DNA of 64,000 nucleotides from an uncultured Saprospiraceae bacterium (lineage in GTDB: Bacteria; Bacteroidota; Bacteroidia; Chitinophagales; Saprospiraceae): the NCBI GenBank assembly GCA_937980645.1, contig CALJPQ010000022.1:1-64000 (forward strand), written 5' to 3'. The position numbers and the translations under genes were made by a program. Numbering within the stretch: position 1 is the first letter of the stretch; every line of letters starts with the position of its first letter. The notes beneath the pieces were generated by a model. The model had not been told where the DNA came from. It searched no databases and worked only from the letters and a program-made list of their open reading frames with translations. Below, in pieces: positions 42,160-52,505 of this stretch.

Positions 42160-42293
42160 ACAAGCAAAATACCCCAGCGAGCATTTTCCTCTCCTGAACC
42201 GGCTCATTCAGCAGCTTAGTTTTCCGGTTGGGTAAGTTTTTTTCCCCTCTGATGTGAATGCTTCATCTTTTTTGCAGCCAAAAATATGCGCTT

Positions 42294-43013
42294 ATGAAAA
42301 GAATATTAATCATCCTGCTCAGTGCTTTCGCTGTATTCCAGCATTCCGCCTGCAAGCATTCACCCCTGACGGGTGAAATACCTACCGACCCGAACAATCC
42401 GGACACTGGCTCAGGCCAACAACCCTGCAGTCCTGACACGGCCTATTTTCAAACTCAAGTATTACCCCTTCTGGTGGCCAGCTGCGCCCGATCCGGCTGC
42501 CACGACGCCATCACGCGCGCCGACGGTGTTGTCATGACCGATTACCAGCAAATTATATCTACTACAAAAGTAAAGGCGGGCAATCCAGCCGATAGCAAAC
42601 TGTACAAGGTGATCGTAGACACTCGCCCCGATGAACGTATGCCGCCGCCGCCGGCTTCGCCGCTAAGTGCTGACCAGATAACCCTTATCCGAAAATGGAT
42701 TGAACAAGGTGCAAAAAACAACACGTGCGACGCCAATGCTGGCGCTTGCGACACCACTACAGTTACCTACAGCGGTTTTGTGCAGCCTTTGATGGACTCT
42801 TATTGCAAAGGTTGCCATAGCGGCACCGCTTCGCAAGGAGGCATCGCACTAACTACCTATGCCGAAACCAGAGCGGTTGCTCAAACCGGACGCCTATACG
42901 GCAGTATCGCTCATCTAACCGGTTACTCTCCCATGCCCAAAGGTAGCGCTGCCTTACCCGACTGCAGCATCAATAAAATCAAACGTTGGATCAACATGGG
43001 TATGCCCCAGTAA
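42294..43013 (+). CDS. Lipoprotein with two haem c attachment sites (one CX4CH, one CXXCH)
   Basis: The 239-residue product has a lipoprotein signal (KRILIILLSAFAVFQHSAC) and a Pro/Asn/Thr-rich linker. Two cytochrome-like modules follow. The first contains SCARSGCHD (Cys-four residues-Cys-His) and MPPPPASPLSADQITLIRKW with a possible Met ligand. The second contains YCKGCHSG (CXXCH), then MPKGSAALPDCSINKIKRW. This fits the 'planctomycete-type' cytochrome c family common in Bacteroidota, which I recall having the same unusual CX4CH first site. It is probably a periplasmic electron carrier or oxygen/redox-linked protein. The start at 42294 removes 12 residues of no signal character. It is divergent from the YceI operon, from a 187-bp shared region. 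Confidence 0.82.
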   Translation: MKRILIILLSAFAVFQHSACKHSPLTGEIPTDPNNPDTGSGQQPCSPDTAYFQTQVLPLLVASCARSGCHDAITRADGVVMTDYQQIISTTKVKAGNPADSKLYKVIVDTRPDERMPPPPASPLSADQITLIRKWIEQGAKNNTCDANAGACDTTTVTYSGFVQPLMDSYCKGCHSGTASQGGIALTTYAETRAVAQTGRLYGSIAHLTGYSPMPKGSAALPDCSINKIKRWINMGMPQ

Positions 43014-44726: not shown

Positions 44727-46775
44727 TTACGAGGAGTGCAGGTAGATGGCGGTGGCGATGAAGAAGGTGCGGCCCCAGTGTACGGGGCGCAGATCGCTAC
44801 TGCCGTGGCCGACTTCAATGCGGTTAGAGGCGCGTATCTGGCGGGTGCCGAGCAGGTTCTTGACGCCCGCATTCAGGCGAAGGCGCTGCTGGAAGAGGTT
44901 ACCGCCTACGGCTACATTGAGCAGGTGCCAGCCTTCGGTGCTGCGCTGTTCCAGTTGAGTGCCATTTTGAAAGAAATAAGGCGTTGCACCGGTCATTTTA
45001 TGCCAGAAAGTGAAATAAGCGCGCTGGTTGGGCAGCGAGAGTGTCAGGTCGTTGACCCAGTCGGGCGCCCAATTGAAGCGCGGTAGGGGTGTTTCGCTGG
45101 TGGCCTCTTCCGAAAAGGTATTGAAGAAACCTGTGAGCACCACATCGGAGCGCAGGCGCATCCATTCGCCGACGCGGAGCGATAGGCCTGTGCCGACGCC
45201 GACGGTTTCCCAATGGCGCAGGTTGGCGTACTGAAACTGCACAGGCGCAAACTCGGCCAGAATGATGCGGTCGCGCACGCGATTGTAGAACCCCCACGTG
45301 GTGATGCTCCAGGAAGTATGGCGGCTTTCGTCGGAATGCCAGCGCACCTCGGCGCGCAGGTTGTCGGAGTACTCCGGTCGCAGGTCGGTGTTGCCTATGA
45401 TGTAGTGGTTGATGTCTATAAAATTGAAAAACAGCTCCTTCAGCCCCGGCGAACGGAAGCCATTGGCATACGAGAGCCTTACCTGCCAGGGCGTTGAAGG
45501 CTTCCACAACAGCCAGACGGAGGGCGTTAGGGCCGAGCCGTAGAGGCTGTTGAGCGTCCAGCGGGCGCCGCCTTGCAGCACTAAGCGCCGCTCCAGAAAA
45601 GAGGCCTTGGCGCTGGCGAACAGGCCCAGGTCGCGGCTGCTGGCCCAGCCCGTGCGCTCAGAGGTAGGGGCTATGATGCGGGCACCCTCGGCGGTTTCGA
45701 TGAAGTTTTCGGCGCCAAAGAGGAAATTCCAGCGGCGCTCTGGGCGGTCGCGTGCAATGGTCAGCCGCATGAGCCAACCTGTAGCAGCAGCGGTATCCTG
45801 CTGGCCCTCGATGAGCGTCCGTTCCTGCTGCTCAAAATCGAAGCGATACGAATTCTTGATACGGTCGAAGCGGTTCCAGCCGGCAGTGCCCTGCCAGAAC
45901 CAGCGCCCTTGCAGCCAGCCCTCGCCGTGCAGCATCAGGTCGGCACGGTCGGTGAAGTAGTAGTCGTCGAAAGCGTATGGGCGGAAGCGTGGCCGCAGCA
46001 TGGGGCCGAGGTTGTCTACCTGTTCGGAGAATAGGCTACCCGACAAGCGCAGGTCGAGCCGTTCGGAAGGCGAAAAGCGCAGTGTGGCGCGCCCGCTTTT
46101 CTGTGTCTTAGGGTTCCACAGTTGCGAGCGCGCACCGGCCGAGTCGGGCAGCGGCTGGAAATCCAGCATATTGCCCGTGATCTGGAGGAGAAATTTGCCC
46201 ATACGCACGCCTGCTCGGCCCTGCCAGTTTCGAAAACCGTTACTCTCCCATTGCGGGCTGGCTTCAGCCTCGACGCGATGCAGCTGGCTCTTGCGTGTAA
46301 CCAGATTAATGACCCCTGCTGACGCCTCCGAGCCGTAGAGAAGTGCCTGCGCACCCTCGATGATTTCCACCTGCTGCACAGCGCCCAGCGGCAGCTGGCC
46401 AGGGTCCACGCTGCCGTTGAGGCGTCCTACTACCGGCACGCCGTCTATGAGAATTTTGACATTCTCGCCGCGCATACCGTTGATGCTCAGAGCACTGCCC
46501 AGCATCGGATCTTGCTCCAGACGCAGGTTAGGTTCCGCCTGAAGCAGCTCTTCCAGGTTGACCGCACCGCGGCGCTCGATGGTGCGGCGGTCGAGCACAC
46601 GGACCGAGTTGACCGTCTGACGCACATCGGTGGGCGTAAATTGCGCCGTAATCACCACCGGCGCTACCTGACTATCGGGCAGCGTATCCACAGAGGACTG
46701 GGCGCTTAGGCTTCCTACGATAGGGCATGCTGCTGCCGTCAAAATCAGCAGGCGTATTAAAGACGAATGCCTCAT
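44727..46775 (-). CDS. TonB-dependent outer-membrane receptor (probable heme/iron or cobalamin type)
   Basis: The 682-residue product starts with a signal peptide (LLILTAAACPIVGSLSAQ). The plug domain shows VAPVVITAQFTPTDVRQTVN, then LLQAEPNLRLEQDP and LINGMRGENVKILIDGVPVV, and the barrel starts with ASAGVINLVTRKSQ. The barrel continues with amphipathic strands (e.g. YANGFRSPGLKELFFNF) and ends in HWGRTFFIATAIYLHSS, ending in Ser rather than the usual aromatic residue. It lies six bases after the HmuY-like gene, and that pairing, as in hmuYR of Porphyromonas, suggests heme uptake. The sequence alone also resembles BtuB. The substrate is an inference from the partner. Confidence 0.9.
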   Translation of the reverse strand: MRHSSLIRLLILTAAACPIVGSLSAQSSVDTLPDSQVAPVVITAQFTPTDVRQTVNSVRVLDRRTIERRGAVNLEELLQAEPNLRLEQDPMLGSALSINGMRGENVKILIDGVPVVGRLNGSVDPGQLPLGAVQQVEIIEGAQALLYGSEASAGVINLVTRKSQLHRVEAEASPQWESNGFRNWQGRAGVRMGKFLLQITGNMLDFQPLPDSAGARSQLWNPKTQKSGRATLRFSPSERLDLRLSGSLFSEQVDNLGPMLRPRFRPYAFDDYYFTDRADLMLHGEGWLQGRWFWQGTAGWNRFDRIKNSYRFDFEQQERTLIEGQQDTAAATGWLMRLTIARDRPERRWNFLFGAENFIETAEGARIIAPTSERTGWASSRDLGLFASAKASFLERRLVLQGGARWTLNSLYGSALTPSVWLLWKPSTPWQVRLSYANGFRSPGLKELFFNFIDINHYIIGNTDLRPEYSDNLRAEVRWHSDESRHTSWSITTWGFYNRVRDRIILAEFAPVQFQYANLRHWETVGVGTGLSLRVGEWMRLRSDVVLTGFFNTFSEEATSETPLPRFNWAPDWVNDLTLSLPNQRAYFTFWHKMTGATPYFFQNGTQLEQRSTEGWHLLNVAVGGNLFQQRLRLNAGVKNLLGTRQIRASNRIEVGHGSSDLRPVHWGRTFFIATAIYLHSS

Positions 46776-46781
46776 GTTGCA

Positions 46782-48074
46782 TTAGTTTTTAAGTGCCTTG
46801 CCCAGCAATACCTCGCGGTCGCTCCAGCGCAGGCGAAGCACGTACAGGCCGCTTGCCCACTCAGCAGCAGGCAGTTCAAAGACCTGGAAACCCTCGTTCA
46901 GCGCCACGCGCGTGCTGCTGATGGCACGCCCTTGCAGGTCGGTTACGTCCAGCTGCGCTTCGCGTGCCAGCGCCGGCGGTATGTCTAAGGCCACCGTCAG
47001 GCGCTCGCGCACCGGGTTGGGATACGTCAGCGCCTGAAGCCCCAGCGCTTGCGGCGCTTCTACGGCGCTGACTAGGCCGAGGTCGGTCTTTTCAAAAACA
47101 GCATTGCCGGTGGCAGCGCCCTCGAAATCAATAAATTGAATCTTCCATACCCGATTGGCCGCCGTTCTGACAAAATAGACCCGATCCTCCGGGACTACCC
47201 AGCCCGTGCCGGTGAAGGTCTTCCAGTCGTGGCCGATGACGTCCAGCTCATTGCGCAGGCTGTTCTGGTGGTCTTCAAATTTGACGGTCTGTGGGTTGAC
47301 GCCCACCACTTTTGCCGACTGAACGCCGCGCCCGTGCAGAATGCCCGTTACCACGTACTGGAGCATGACGTTGTTGATGGAGTCAAATTGCGGCGTGGTA
47401 TAACGGCAGTACAGAAGGTCGAAACCACCTGCCGGCTCCACATCGGCCACAACGTTGTTGGTGGTAAAGCTGAAATAGGCCAGCACGCGGCCCGGGTGAT
47501 CGGCCTTGTTGATGGTGCGTACCTGCTCGTTGGAGCCGTCTAAGTTAGCGTAACGGAAGGTGTACGTCGTACCCGAAAGCGACTCGATTTTAATTTTGCG
47601 GAACTGGCCGTTGCGCAGTTTGAGGACATAGACCGCACTACCGACGACCTGGTTGGTCATGAAATTATAGGTGCCCCAGCCGTAATCCGTCTGTTTGGTG
47701 GTATCGCGGCGTTCGTTGAAGGCGCCGTAGAACCAGTTGCGCTCGCGGTTGAAGAGGCGGAAGTCTTTGATGGCATCCGGGTTGGGCTGAGCCGAAAAGT
47801 CGGTCGTTTGTGCGTCGTACAACTCCACGGCAGCCTGCGGTTGGCCCATGCTGGAGCCGGCACTTTCATTGATGAAAATACCGCCGTCTTGCTGCCCATA
47901 GACGGTGAAAGCGATGTCCCAGGCGGTGTTGAGCACCTGCTTCTCCGTGTCGGCGGCTAAGTTGACAAAGCTCTGGCGCTGATAGCCAGCGCCGGTGCTG
48001 ATTTTCTGGAAGTTCTGGCCAAAAAGCGCGCTGGCGATGGCTGCGCACAGGAAGATAAGGGTTAACTGTCTCAT
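46782..48074 (-). CDS. HmuY-like heme-binding protein carrying a T9SS type A sorting domain
   Basis: The 430-residue product has a signal peptide (MRQLTLIFLCAAIASALFGQ). The next ~310 residues resemble HmuY: the core NTAWDIAFTVYGQQDGGIFI, GGFDLLYCRYTTPQFDSINN, and a late tryptophan-rich strand pair. HmuY proteins take heme from host or environmental sources. The last ~85 residues (ALTYPNPVRERLTVALDIPP, LDVTDLQGRAISS, YVLRLRWSDREVLLGKALKN) form a T9SS type A sorting domain, so the protein should be secreted onto or off the cell surface. Known HmuY is instead a lipoprotein. The start at 48074 replaces a longer frame that begins at 48149. It is in an operon with the TonB receptor. Confidence 0.85.
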   Translation of the reverse strand: MRQLTLIFLCAAIASALFGQNFQKISTGAGYQRQSFVNLAADTEKQVLNTAWDIAFTVYGQQDGGIFINESAGSSMGQPQAAVELYDAQTTDFSAQPNPDAIKDFRLFNRERNWFYGAFNERRDTTKQTDYGWGTYNFMTNQVVGSAVYVLKLRNGQFRKIKIESLSGTTYTFRYANLDGSNEQVRTINKADHPGRVLAYFSFTTNNVVADVEPAGGFDLLYCRYTTPQFDSINNVMLQYVVTGILHGRGVQSAKVVGVNPQTVKFEDHQNSLRNELDVIGHDWKTFTGTGWVVPEDRVYFVRTAANRVWKIQFIDFEGAATGNAVFEKTDLGLVSAVEAPQALGLQALTYPNPVRERLTVALDIPPALAREAQLDVTDLQGRAISSTRVALNEGFQVFELPAAEWASGLYVLRLRWSDREVLLGKALKN

Positions 48075-48407
48075 TGCTAAAACTCGTTTGATATGGTGTG
48101 AAACGGAACTTTTTTCAGCCATAGGAGGGTTTGGCATCCGATGCTGCAAAGTTCCAGGGCCCCGACAAGAGGCCTGGCTTCCCGCCCGTCAAAGGATTGT
48201 CATCTTTCCCAAAGGGAAGCCCTATCCGGCAAAGCACACCCCCGGAGGCCAGGAGTGTTGCCCACCTTCGCTTAAGGCCCAAACATGTCCCTCTGCCGTT
48301 TACAGGCTCGAGTCGTTTGGTCATTACTGCTTTGCAGTTGAAAAAATCGGCCTATTTTGGCCGAAGATTTTTGCGGAAAACCGTTCTTTCATCCAAACCA
48401 ATTCACC
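48075..48407 (-). other. 333 bp region between hmuY-like and stomatin genes, structured leader candidate
   Basis: On the minus (hmuY) side there are several hairpins: TTCCCTTTGGGAA, a CCAGGCC...GGCCCTGG pair near 48157-48181, and the GCATCGGATGC palindrome near 48137-48148. The sequence between them (around 48180-48230) has GC-rich conserved-looking blocks and suggests a regulatory leader, but it does not match the cobalamin box closely enough for me to name it. No clear promoter was found. On the plus side the region leads to the stomatin gene, with GATTTTTG at about 48366. Confidence 0.35.
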
Positions 48408-49815: not shown

Positions 49816-51354
49816 TTAAGGCTTAGCCAGCAGCAACGGCTGGCGAACAATACCCGGGCTGCCGGCGCACAAGAAGAAGTAAGCGCCGGCAGCCCATTTT
49901 TCTGTGGGCAGCGGTACCCACTCGCGCTCGCTAAAAAAGGCGCGCTCTTGGCGAAAAAGCAAGCGACCTGCTGCGTCGAACACTGAGAGCGTCAACGGCT
50001 GGCCGCGCCAATGTTCGGGAGTTTCTACGACCAGCGGCGTGCCCTGCGAAAGCAGGGTCGGGTAGATGCTCCACCCCGCCTCGCCTGCCGTCTGCACGGC
50101 GCTAACCGCTGTGGATAAGAAGCGACCAGATGCGCTGTACGGCCCCACAGAAGCGGCGTTGAAGGCGCGTACGCGCCAAAAGTAGTTCCAGTTAGGCGTT
50201 AGGTTTTGGGCCAGAGCAAAGGTGTCGCTCACGACGGCTTCAAAGTCGCGAATGCCGAAACTGCCCACCTTAGATGCTTGCACCAGGTAATGAGTAGCGT
50301 TGGGCGCCGCCCGCCATTGCAGCACCGTGGCGTTTACAGGGCTAGGCGCGCTGTTGATGGGTGCCACTAATTGGGCTGCTTGTACCACTAAGCCCGTTAC
50401 CGGCGCTGCGGGGGCCACCCAGTGGGCGCGGTCGGTCAGCAGGCGTGTGCGCATGATCTGGATTTGCTGTGGCGTGAAGCGGCGCTGGCAGTTGTCGGCA
50501 GCATATGACATGAACAGGGTGCCGTCGGAGAAGAATGGCTCACCCGCTGGGTCGCGTTGTTGCACGTTGCTCTGCCCCTGAGCATTGCATGGCCAGCGGT
50601 AGCTGAGGTAGTCTGGCCCTGTGTCGCAAATGCGGTCGGCGGCAATGGTGCAGTTGCGCCCGTCCACGTATTCGACTAAAGCGGTGTCTAAAGGTGCCGG
50701 CACGATGGTATCCGGATCGGCGTGGAAGTGCGTGTAGTCGTACAGCAGCGTGTCGGGTGTGGGCAGGTCAGGGTTGTACTGCTTGCCCTCCCAGCCTAAG
50801 AAAGGGTGCGGCAGCGCCAGCGCATGGCCCATTTCGTGTGCCCAGGTGTGGTCATTAGGCCCAGAACAGGCGTGCGCCATAGCGATGCCGGCATAGGGCA
50901 GGTTGTAGCCGCAGTTGCCCGCTGCCCGCGCCATGAAATAGACGTTGAGCGCGCCAGGTACGTTGTTGGCAAACATCATTTCGCGCCCTTGCACTACCGA
51001 GTCGTGTTCAAACCACAGACTGCTGTTCAGCAGGTTCCACGGGTGTTTGAAATAAAACCGGATGCCCGTTTGGGCAAAGTCCTCGTTCAGGCGGTGAAAG
51101 GCGTCGAGCATACGGTCGGGGCCAAAGCGCCCGGTGCCGTCGTTGCGTGCCAGCAGATGGATTTGCAGGGCCGTCCATAGAGTGTCGTTACTATCGTGCA
51201 CATCTATGGGAGTAGCTAAGTATTTGCGCAGCCACGGATCCATACCGGCCGGCGTGCCGCAAGGGTGCAGGGCGTTTTTGTCACCCTCGACTTGAGCCAT
51301 GACAGGGGCATGAGAGAAGCCAGCCAATAACAGCAGGAGTAAAGCGCGTTTCAT
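49816..51354 (-). CDS. Secreted M43-type (pappalysin) metallopeptidase with fibronectin-like and T9SS type A domains
   Basis: The 512-residue product has a signal peptide (KRALLLLLLAGFSHAPVMA). The peptidase domain has the zinc motif HEMGHALALPH at residues 173-183 (two His and the catalytic Glu, plus a third His ten residues after the first), a Met-turn MSYAADNC near 282, and several Cys. These mark a metzincin of the pappalysin/M43 type, which digests extracellular protein. Residues of about 330-420 look like a fibronectin type III domain (NATHYLVQASKVGSFGIRDF). The last ~85 (WSIYPTLLSQGTPLVVETPE, LSVFDAAGRLLFRQE) form the T9SS sorting domain. It is convergent with the NfeD gene and divergent from another T9SS cargo. 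Confidence 0.91.
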   Translation of the reverse strand: MKRALLLLLLAGFSHAPVMAQVEGDKNALHPCGTPAGMDPWLRKYLATPIDVHDSNDTLWTALQIHLLARNDGTGRFGPDRMLDAFHRLNEDFAQTGIRFYFKHPWNLLNSSLWFEHDSVVQGREMMFANNVPGALNVYFMARAAGNCGYNLPYAGIAMAHACSGPNDHTWAHEMGHALALPHPFLGWEGKQYNPDLPTPDTLLYDYTHFHADPDTIVPAPLDTALVEYVDGRNCTIAADRICDTGPDYLSYRWPCNAQGQSNVQQRDPAGEPFFSDGTLFMSYAADNCQRRFTPQQIQIMRTRLLTDRAHWVAPAAPVTGLVVQAAQLVAPINSAPSPVNATVLQWRAAPNATHYLVQASKVGSFGIRDFEAVVSDTFALAQNLTPNWNYFWRVRAFNAASVGPYSASGRFLSTAVSAVQTAGEAGWSIYPTLLSQGTPLVVETPEHWRGQPLTLSVFDAAGRLLFRQERAFFSEREWVPLPTEKWAAGAYFFLCAGSPGIVRQPLLLAKP

Positions 51355-51620
51355 GACGAAGCAAAGCAGATGTGTTTGGGTAATGCGTCAGGGCGTAAAA
51401 GTAAGGCGGCCGAGGCTTTGCTGGGGCGGCAAATTCCGTCAGGATGGACACGTGGAGGCTGCCTAAATCCTCAGAGAGGCTGTTCTGTGCGCGCTTTTTA
51501 TTTTTTCAAAAAAATAGCCAGCGTTTCCCAGCGAAAAGCAGTCTTGCAAAAAGACGGTTTTGCCTTCGCCGATGGCAAAGGAAAAACCGGAAAGCATTAC
51601 GTTACCAAAACAACTCCGTT

Positions 51621-52505
51621 ATGCTCAAGCAATTGTGCTTTGCCCTGTTTCTGGCCTTCGGGGCTCATACACTCCTCGCCCAAACGTGGTTTCAGAACGG
51701 CGACGAATGGACGTACTACATAACTACTGGCTGGAACTTTCCAAACTGGGGGCATCATCGGCTGACGGTGGAAGGCGATACGCTTCTGGGCGATACACTT
51801 TGGAAAAAACTTGTCTATCGCGAGATTAATATTCCTCCCAAAACCTTTCTGGCGCGTGCAGAAGGGCAGCAGGTGTTTCACTTAGATTTTTTCTCTGCCA
51901 GCCCGCCTAAGGTGTTCAAAATTTACGATTTCTCCCTGCGCCCGGGCGACACCCTGCATATAGACACCGCTCGCTGGTACGTCATTACCGATACTATGCG
52001 CAGGGTGATTGGCCATCAGCAGCGCCAGCTGCAGCATTTTCGGTGGAAAGGCACTGGCCCTACTTATGTTGCCATTGAGGGCATCGGTATGACGGGGTTG
52101 GCCCAAGACCCAACGGCAGAGAAAGTTTGCTCGTTTCTGCTGCTTGGCATGCCTTATTGCATGGGCTTTGTGGACGGCTACGATTTCTTTTTCCGCTGCT
52201 TCAGCCGCGGTGCAGACGACCGATATTGGCCCTTCAGCATCTGTCAGACCTTGAGCGCCTCCAGCCCTACTGCCGAACCGGTGCAGGTATGGCCCAACCC
52301 AGCGTACGACCGCCTGTGGGTGCGCGGGGAGCATCGTACCCTCCGACTTTTCGACGCGCAGGGCCGATGGGTGTGGGAAAATACGGCATCTGCAAGCGAT
52401 CCGCTGGAAATACCCGTGGCTCATCTCCCGCGCGGTGTGTACTTCTTGTGGGCCTTTGCAGACAATGGTGCCGTGGGCGTGCAACGCATAGTGCTGGCGC
52501 CGTAA
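51621..52505 (+). CDS. T9SS-sorted secreted protein of unknown function
   Basis: The 294-residue product has a signal peptide (MLKQLCFALFLAFGAHTLLA) and a mature part starting QTWFQNGDEWTYYITTGWN. This resembles the N-terminal strand pattern of Bacteroidota exported proteins that begin 'W..G..W.Y'. The middle (about 100-190) has Cys and a strand-rich layout that I do not recognise. The C-terminus (VQVWPNPAYDRLWVRGEHR, RLFDAQGRWVWEN, LPRGVYFLWAFADNG) is a T9SS type A sorting domain. The long upstream frame from 51444 is basic and ignored. It is divergent from the M43 peptidase. Confidence 0.8.
   Translation: MLKQLCFALFLAFGAHTLLAQTWFQNGDEWTYYITTGWNFPNWGHHRLTVEGDTLLGDTLWKKLVYREINIPPKTFLARAEGQQVFHLDFFSASPPKVFKIYDFSLRPGDTLHIDTARWYVITDTMRRVIGHQQRQLQHFRWKGTGPTYVAIEGIGMTGLAQDPTAEKVCSFLLLGMPYCMGFVDGYDFFFRCFSRGADDRYWPFSICQTLSASSPTAEPVQVWPNPAYDRLWVRGEHRTLRLFDAQGRWVWENTASASDPLEIPVAHLPRGVYFLWAFADNGAVGVQRIVLAP

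Follow-up and report, generated by a model that had tools for sequence, protein, structure and literature searches.

A predicted T9SS-exported double HmuY protein and its TonB-dependent receptor: a probable heme-scavenging pair in an uncultured Saprospiraceae bacterium

How may a bacterium obtain heme if it appears to have given up making it? This question is raised by a gene pair on the minus strand of a 64,000-nucleotide stretch of DNA from an uncultured Saprospiraceae bacterium (assembly GCA_937980645.1, contig CALJPQ010000022.1; "the window" below means this whole stretch), in which the gene of an HmuY-like protein (P0001) is followed by that of a TonB-dependent receptor (P0002). An earlier note, made from the sequence alone, had taken the pair for a hemophore linked to the type IX secretion system (T9SS) that feeds the receptor, and at the level of sequence and structural models our analysis supports this interpretation. 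The domains, predicted fold, gene linkage, receptor motif, T9SS genes and gene absences were computed, and from them we infer heme binding, export, hand-over and auxotrophy. We consider it probable (roughly 0.78) that the two genes form a heme-scavenging unit, composed of a T9SS-exported double HmuY protein and a TonB-dependent receptor, that replaces heme biosynthesis.

Architecture and predicted fold of the HmuY-like protein

The HmuY-like gene (46782–48074, minus strand; ATG at 48074, stop ending at 46782) encodes a protein of 430 aa with near-full-length homologues in other genomes. The Pfam search identified the HmuY family (PF14064, 45.1 bits against a cut-off of 27) in two stretches, at residues 31–167 and at 47106–47276, i.e. 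approximately residues 267–323. The profile comparison of residues 20–180 with residues 176–340, based on an alignment of 41 homologues, matched the two segments to each other (probability 94.8, E 5.6e-8), and therefore we regard the HmuY region as an internal duplication, with repeat 1 at residues ~20–178 (47541–48017, minus strand) and repeat 2 at residues ~179–335 (47070–47540, minus strand). The repeats are preceded by a putative signal peptide without a lipobox (residues ~1–19; 48018–48074, minus strand), recognized by reading of the sequence, corresponding to a helix at residues 2–17 of the structural model and with a putative cleavage site. They are followed by a T9SS type A C-terminal sorting domain (residues ~341–430; 46785–47054, minus strand), identified by TIGR04183 of NCBIfam at residues 351–418 (32.9 bits, cut-off 23) and by PF18962 of Pfam (27.5 bits, cut-off 27), with the motifs ALTYPNPVRERLTV at residue 348 and YVLRLRWSDREVLLGK at residue 411. 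Neither the reading of the sequence nor the pattern search revealed a lipobox in the window protein, as would be expected of a Porphyromonas-type lipoprotein anchor.

The search of PDB sequences with the HmuY protein alone matched no HmuY and gave two chance-level matches only, while the Foldseek search with the full-length AlphaFold model (mean predicted local distance difference test, pLDDT, 89.6) yielded one match at E <= 0.001, with low TM-scores: 6r2h (PinO), which we take to be HmuY-type. The fold assignment hence needed realignment of the Foldseek matches and a separate model of repeat 1. Realigned to the solved structures, the full-length model has HmuY-type proteins at ranks 1–6 and 8 (Z 10.2–13.2, 128–138 residues, root mean square deviation (rmsd) 2.8–3.5), headed by 6r2h (Z 13.2, 130 residues, rmsd 2.8) and including 6ewm (Z 11.6). 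Repeat 1 folded alone has them at ranks 1–8 (Z 11.6–14.3, the next row being at 8.6 and the following ones below 4), with HmuY 3h8t as the best match (Z 14.3, 143 residues, rmsd 3.1). The structures 3u22, 6ewm, 6eu8, 8b6a and 8b61 are HmuY-like by label or sequence listing, and 4gbs is labelled only as a putative lipoprotein. The fold of the sorting tail matches T9SS C-terminal domains, but unrelated Ig-like domains reach similar Z-scores, hence this match is not specific.

The models suggest a swap of outer strands between the repeats, in which the N-terminal part of repeat 1 packs with the C-terminal part of repeat 2, as read from the first and last residues of the alignment ranges rather than from coordinates. 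We propose this because the N-terminal stretch of repeat 1 is confident only in the full-length model (pLDDT of 88–96 per ten-residue block over the first 60 residues, against 54–71 in repeat 1 alone, whose mean is 77) and because the seven HmuY-type alignments of the full-length model each reach across both repeats, beginning where repeat 1 begins (residues 15–21) and ending where repeat 2 ends (residues 333–335).

These results agree with most of what the earlier note had said of the gene: it does belong to the HmuY family (PF14064), a T9SS type A sorting domain does stand at its end (PF18962 and TIGR04183 concur, and both motifs quoted there are present), the receptor gene does follow after six bases, and a model unlike the HmuY fold, which the note had named as evidence against it, was not obtained, since HmuY-type crystal structures fill the first six ranks for the full-length model and the first eight for repeat 1. 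The note had overlooked the second HmuY repeat.

The machinery for export was sought as SprA and PorU in the bacterium's own genome, an assembly of 40 contigs listed as 100% complete. SprA was found twice at full length (contig C18, 24553–31968; contig C2, 27746–35140), PorU is present, and the sorting-tail family has 121 matches at E <= 0.001. By its sequence, i.e. a sorting domain, a signal peptide and the machinery in its own genome, the HmuY protein has the makings of a T9SS type A cargo.

The TonB-dependent receptor and its linkage to HmuY

Downstream of the HmuY stop codon, after a gap of exactly six bases (46776–46781, minus strand), lies the gene of the TonB-dependent receptor (44727–46775, minus strand; ATG at 46775, stop at 44727), a protein of 682 aa with the PF07715 and PF00593 domains that probably takes up heme, judging from its loop motif. 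Heme receptors have been described as carrying FRAP and NPNL boxes with a loop His (PMC3832793; also the figure legend of PMC6200708; the papers cited here by PMC number are represented by excerpts). The window receptor exhibits variant boxes, FRSP and GNTDL, with the intervening His kept, in the order FRSP...NH...GNTDL (45381–45458, minus strand). Among 41 aligned receptors longer than 600 aa, 40 retain this His457, 32 have FR[SA]P and 38 have GNxxL. None of the 25 NCBIfam models shown for the receptor reached its curated cut-off: the TonB-hemin model scored 91.3 bits against 316.85 (a relative's receptor likewise stayed below, with 115.6 bits), and the best model, that of the B12 receptor, scored 112.1 bits against 599.7. 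The best matches in the search of PDB sequences were the colicin I receptor and BtuB.

The same fusion was found elsewhere, as the earlier note had proposed to look for it in other Bacteroidota. The HmuY protein aligned nearly at full length (E <= 8.4e-25) in 11 of the 296 genomes of a phylum sample besides its own; 117 of the 296 matched it in some way, most of the matches listed being to the sorting tail only. A further scan revealed 42 loci with homologues, the closest from Saprospiraceae metagenome-assembled genomes (MAGs; 91% identity, SKYG121), and PF14064 is present in 67 of a set of 149 genomes that includes the own one. We assembled 60 neighbourhoods plus the window, chosen for HmuY matches, hence the rates among them are biased; 54 of the 61 loci have a T9SS-tailed double HmuY, 6 the short form only and one neither by this model. 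At 30 of the 54 tailed loci a receptor of the window family lies downstream on the same strand (in 20 with a gap of at most 120 nt, measured between stop-to-stop frames) and at 5 it is divergent, so that it adjoins HmuY in 35 of 54. Because of the near-full-length homologues and this recurring linkage, we regard the fusion as more than chance.

Members of four gene clusters separate HmuY from the receptor in six loci (L045, L046, L048, L050, L084, L113). L050, the one locus among them in which all four families were examined, has there a periplasmic binding protein, a FecCD permease, a heme ATP-binding cassette (ABC) ATPase (NF010068, 287.5 bits, cut-off 261) and HemS/ChuX (PF05171, PF06228); a gene of the HemS cluster is present at 7 of the 54 tailed loci. 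The presence of heme ABC transporter and HemS genes in the operons of relatives thus argues for heme as the substrate.

A second form, the short double HmuY without the tail, occurs in related Bacteroidota (L050–L052, L087–L092, L095–L098, L100, L116–L121), and 14 of the 54 tailed loci have it alongside the tailed protein. It likewise has a two-repeat HmuY region, and the same receptor family is found in 19 of its 20 loci (not in L088), as in the window pair. Unlike the window protein, the short forms lack the sorting tail and exhibit a lipobox-like N-terminus in 16 of 20 by pattern, hence they are probably lipid-anchored. In a tree of 74 repeat regions all 54 tailed forms lie on one side of a branch with 100/100 support and the 20 short ones on the other; the tree was rooted at midpoint, the tail was trimmed by a fixed 75 residues, so that some tail letters may remain, and L119 and L094 form long branches.

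Several other genes accompany these loci. Members of a DUF6686 cluster (small proteins) stand beside L045, L046, L048, L083 and L111, and of a DUF6607 cluster (larger proteins) beside L051, L083, L115, L118 and L122; both are families of no known function, assigned by Pfam on one representative each. In L047 and L112 a gene of an AraC-type regulator cluster (Pfam on the L118 member) lies between the divergent receptor and HmuY and is a candidate heme-responsive regulator.

Heme supply of the host and the choice of ligand

The host is probably a heme auxotroph, because ferrochelatase (PF00762) and ALAD/HemB (PF00490), the two enzymes of the heme pathway that were searched for, gave no match in its genome, while heme-copper oxidases remain (two genes of subunit I, COX1). 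Near the uptake pair, a gene on the plus strand (42258–43013) encodes a cytochrome-c-like protein (PSCyt1), probably another heme protein. Among 149 genomes, own included, ferrochelatase is absent from 47 of the 67 with HmuY and from 23 of the 82 without it (Fisher p 5e-7). The association appears in each stratum: 11/17 vs 6/25 in the genus (p 0.012), 13/20 vs 6/29 in the rest of the family (p 0.003) and 23/30 vs 11/28 in the rest of the order (p 0.007). It is found also when only the 120 genomes of better quality are counted (completeness of 90% or more, contamination of 5% or less), where 38/53 genomes with HmuY and 20/67 without it lack ferrochelatase (p 8e-6, computed from tallies and rounded completeness and contamination values). 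Within the bacterium's own subclade of ten genomes, the eight with an adjacent receptor are all devoid of ferrochelatase (two of them only 77 and 87% complete), and no receptor is seen in the two with ferrochelatase, one of which has its locus on a truncated contig.

A number of observations weigh against a heme unit that replaces biosynthesis. Axial ligands in characterised HmuY members are His/His or Met/Met, and no conserved axial His or Met pair was found among the 41 relatives of the window protein: the loop His of repeat 1, present in 18 of them, is Asn141 in the window protein, and position 282, which is His here, is His in only 11 of the 41. The own genome has no match to the FecCD permease (PF01032), which 13 of the 14 control genomes do have, or to HemS (PF05171), in searches that did not extend to the gut-type CobN-like HmuS, HmuT, HmuU, HmuV and other TonB heme receptors; with FecCD and HemS unmatched, no classical periplasm-to-cytoplasm heme route was therefore found. 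Ferrochelatase is kept in 20 of the 67 HmuY-containing genomes and 23 genomes have neither, the Fisher tests ignore phylogeny within strata, and many of the genomes are fragmented MAGs. A receptor of the window family was found at none of 19 of the 54 tailed loci, although L103, L107, L109 and L110 have less than 2.5 kb downstream. Finally, Flavobacterium columnare showed no growth defect when the gene of its T9SS-secreted HmuY was deleted (PMC9618737); that bacterium has other iron uptake systems, and it is likened to the window protein by description, not by sequence.

The unconserved ligand positions could mean that the HmuY fold was kept while heme binding was lost, the double repeat serving as a surface lid or docking partner of a receptor that captures heme alone, and HfpR of Flavobacterium psychrophilum indeed works partly without its hemophore (PMC9331221). 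We find this unlikely: ligands vary within the HmuY family and heme binding persists in members that have different residues (PMC6200708, PMC9331221), the His pair of Porphyromonas gingivalis is itself poorly conserved (PMC6200708), and the gene stands beside a receptor of the window family at 35 of the 54 loci. That same frequency, together with the confinement of the tailed forms to one side of the fully supported branch, leaves very little room for a coincidence of tail and neighbouring receptor, in which the HmuY protein would have another surface role, despite the abundance of sorting tails in the own genome and the 19 loci without a receptor. One candidate for the ligand, Met139, located six residues past a near-invariant Trp at the same offset as a Met in a Tannerella segment, was dropped, as Met occurs there in only 3 of 41 relatives.

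Vitamin B12 (cobamides) deserves consideration as the substrate since the closest models and PDB sequences of the receptor include those of B12 receptors, and surface B12-binding proteins adjoin BtuB in Bacteroides (PMC8941943, PMC12751083); the pair would then be a BtuB-like receptor with a corrinoid-capturing HmuY-like surface protein. The score of the B12 model is, however, far under its cut-off, the window has no Rfam match at gathering scores, and no cobalamin riboswitch was found upstream at a permissive threshold. The B12-binding proteins of the two excerpts are of other kinds, and the literature search gave no BtuH together with HmuY. The kept loop of heme receptors, the HemS and heme ABC ATPase genes in the operons of relatives and the association with absence of ferrochelatase all speak for heme, which on sequence grounds is favoured over B12, and a role in B12 uptake appears quite improbable.

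We therefore return to the heme-scavenging unit, for which the following course may be envisaged. The signal peptide would carry the HmuY protein across the inner membrane, and the protein would fold into a compact double HmuY unit before the T9SS exports it across the outer membrane. PorU would then remove the tail, and the protein would stay on the surface or be released. Heme that it catches from the surroundings would be handed over to the TonB-dependent receptor encoded next to it, for import into the periplasm. In the host, this unit would stand in for heme biosynthesis. If both heme synthesis and the FecCD importer have been lost, heme must therefore either serve in the periplasm or find a different way across the inner membrane to the cytochromes, e.g. 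through an importer belonging to some other family. A more specific version, in which a T9SS-exported, pseudo-dimeric, strand-exchanged hemophore is the main heme entry of a probably free-living auxotroph without heme synthesis and FecCD importer, is put forward as a tentative proposal that may well prove wrong.

These considerations suggest that T9SS export of HmuY can accompany dependence on the heme of others, beyond blood and gut, in Bacteroidota for which metagenomes are the main source of knowledge. Should the missing genes be truly absent, the host has heme-copper oxidases yet no FecCD-type heme importer, and the use of periplasmic heme becomes a testable question.

Flanking elements and known systems

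Upstream of HmuY, about 113 nt before its start, lies the conserved 16-mer ATGACAATCCTTTGAC (48188–48203, minus strand), a possible operator or promoter element that is the single such site in the window (at most 3 mismatches). Of 19 named relatives, 6 have a 17-mer match (at most 4 mismatches, no chance control) 90–131 nt before hmuY, and in an alignment of four upstream regions the 16-mer and a shorter block closer to the gene are the main conserved parts. Judging from this, the 16-mer is a possible operator for some regulator. The scan gave no sigma-70-like promoter, with a model that is uninformative for Bacteroidota. A cobalamin riboswitch had been suspected here by eye and was abandoned, as Rfam at a permissive threshold returned only four matches at chance level, and the cobalamin family was not among them. 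Farther away, two genes of surface-type proteins stand beside an SPFH/NfeD gene pair: one on the minus strand (49819–51354) with a zinc-peptidase-like HEMGH motif recognized by eye and a weak fn3 match, the other on the plus strand (51444–52502) with a T9SS tail.

Among described systems, the closest in domain composition is the HmuY of F. columnare (C6N29_01035), which combines an HmuY domain with Por_Secre_tail and was reported to be secreted by the T9SS (PMC9618737, citing Thunes et al. 2022). It shares both domain types with the window protein and shows that the lipoprotein anchor is not found throughout the HmuY family; two repeats or a paired receptor are not mentioned in the excerpt. 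Because this case is in print, the fusion of HmuY with a T9SS tail is itself not new, contrary to what the earlier note had implied. The literature search, conducted without supplements, gave no other T9SS-tailed HmuY, and none with tandem HmuY domains in one protein, the excerpts of related papers describing several genes instead. What the present analysis adds to the literature searched, in which it was not found, is the double architecture, the linkage to the receptor, the clean split from the short forms and the tie to absent heme synthesis. HmuY homologues from Saprospiria are named in the legend of a published tree (PMC6200708), and in the hmu operon of Porphyromonas endodontalis the gene of a T9SS-domain protein lies beside a separate hmuY (PMC11208336).

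The HmuY–HmuR pair of P. gingivalis, like that of the window, combines the HmuY fold with an adjacent TonB-dependent heme receptor. Its HmuY is a lipoprotein with His134 and His166 as ligands (PMC6200708), whereas the window protein has two repeats, a T9SS tail and unconserved ligands. With respect to the hmuYRSTUV operon, the window keeps hmuY beside the TonB receptor, and a FecCD-type permease was not found in the own genome. Such a reduced layout is known from the HfpY–HfpR system of F. psychrophilum, in which HfpY binds heme (PMC9331221). A T9SS tail is not mentioned in that excerpt, whereas the window protein is tailed, but both systems consist of a hemophore, or predicted hemophore, and a receptor without the rest of the hmu operon.

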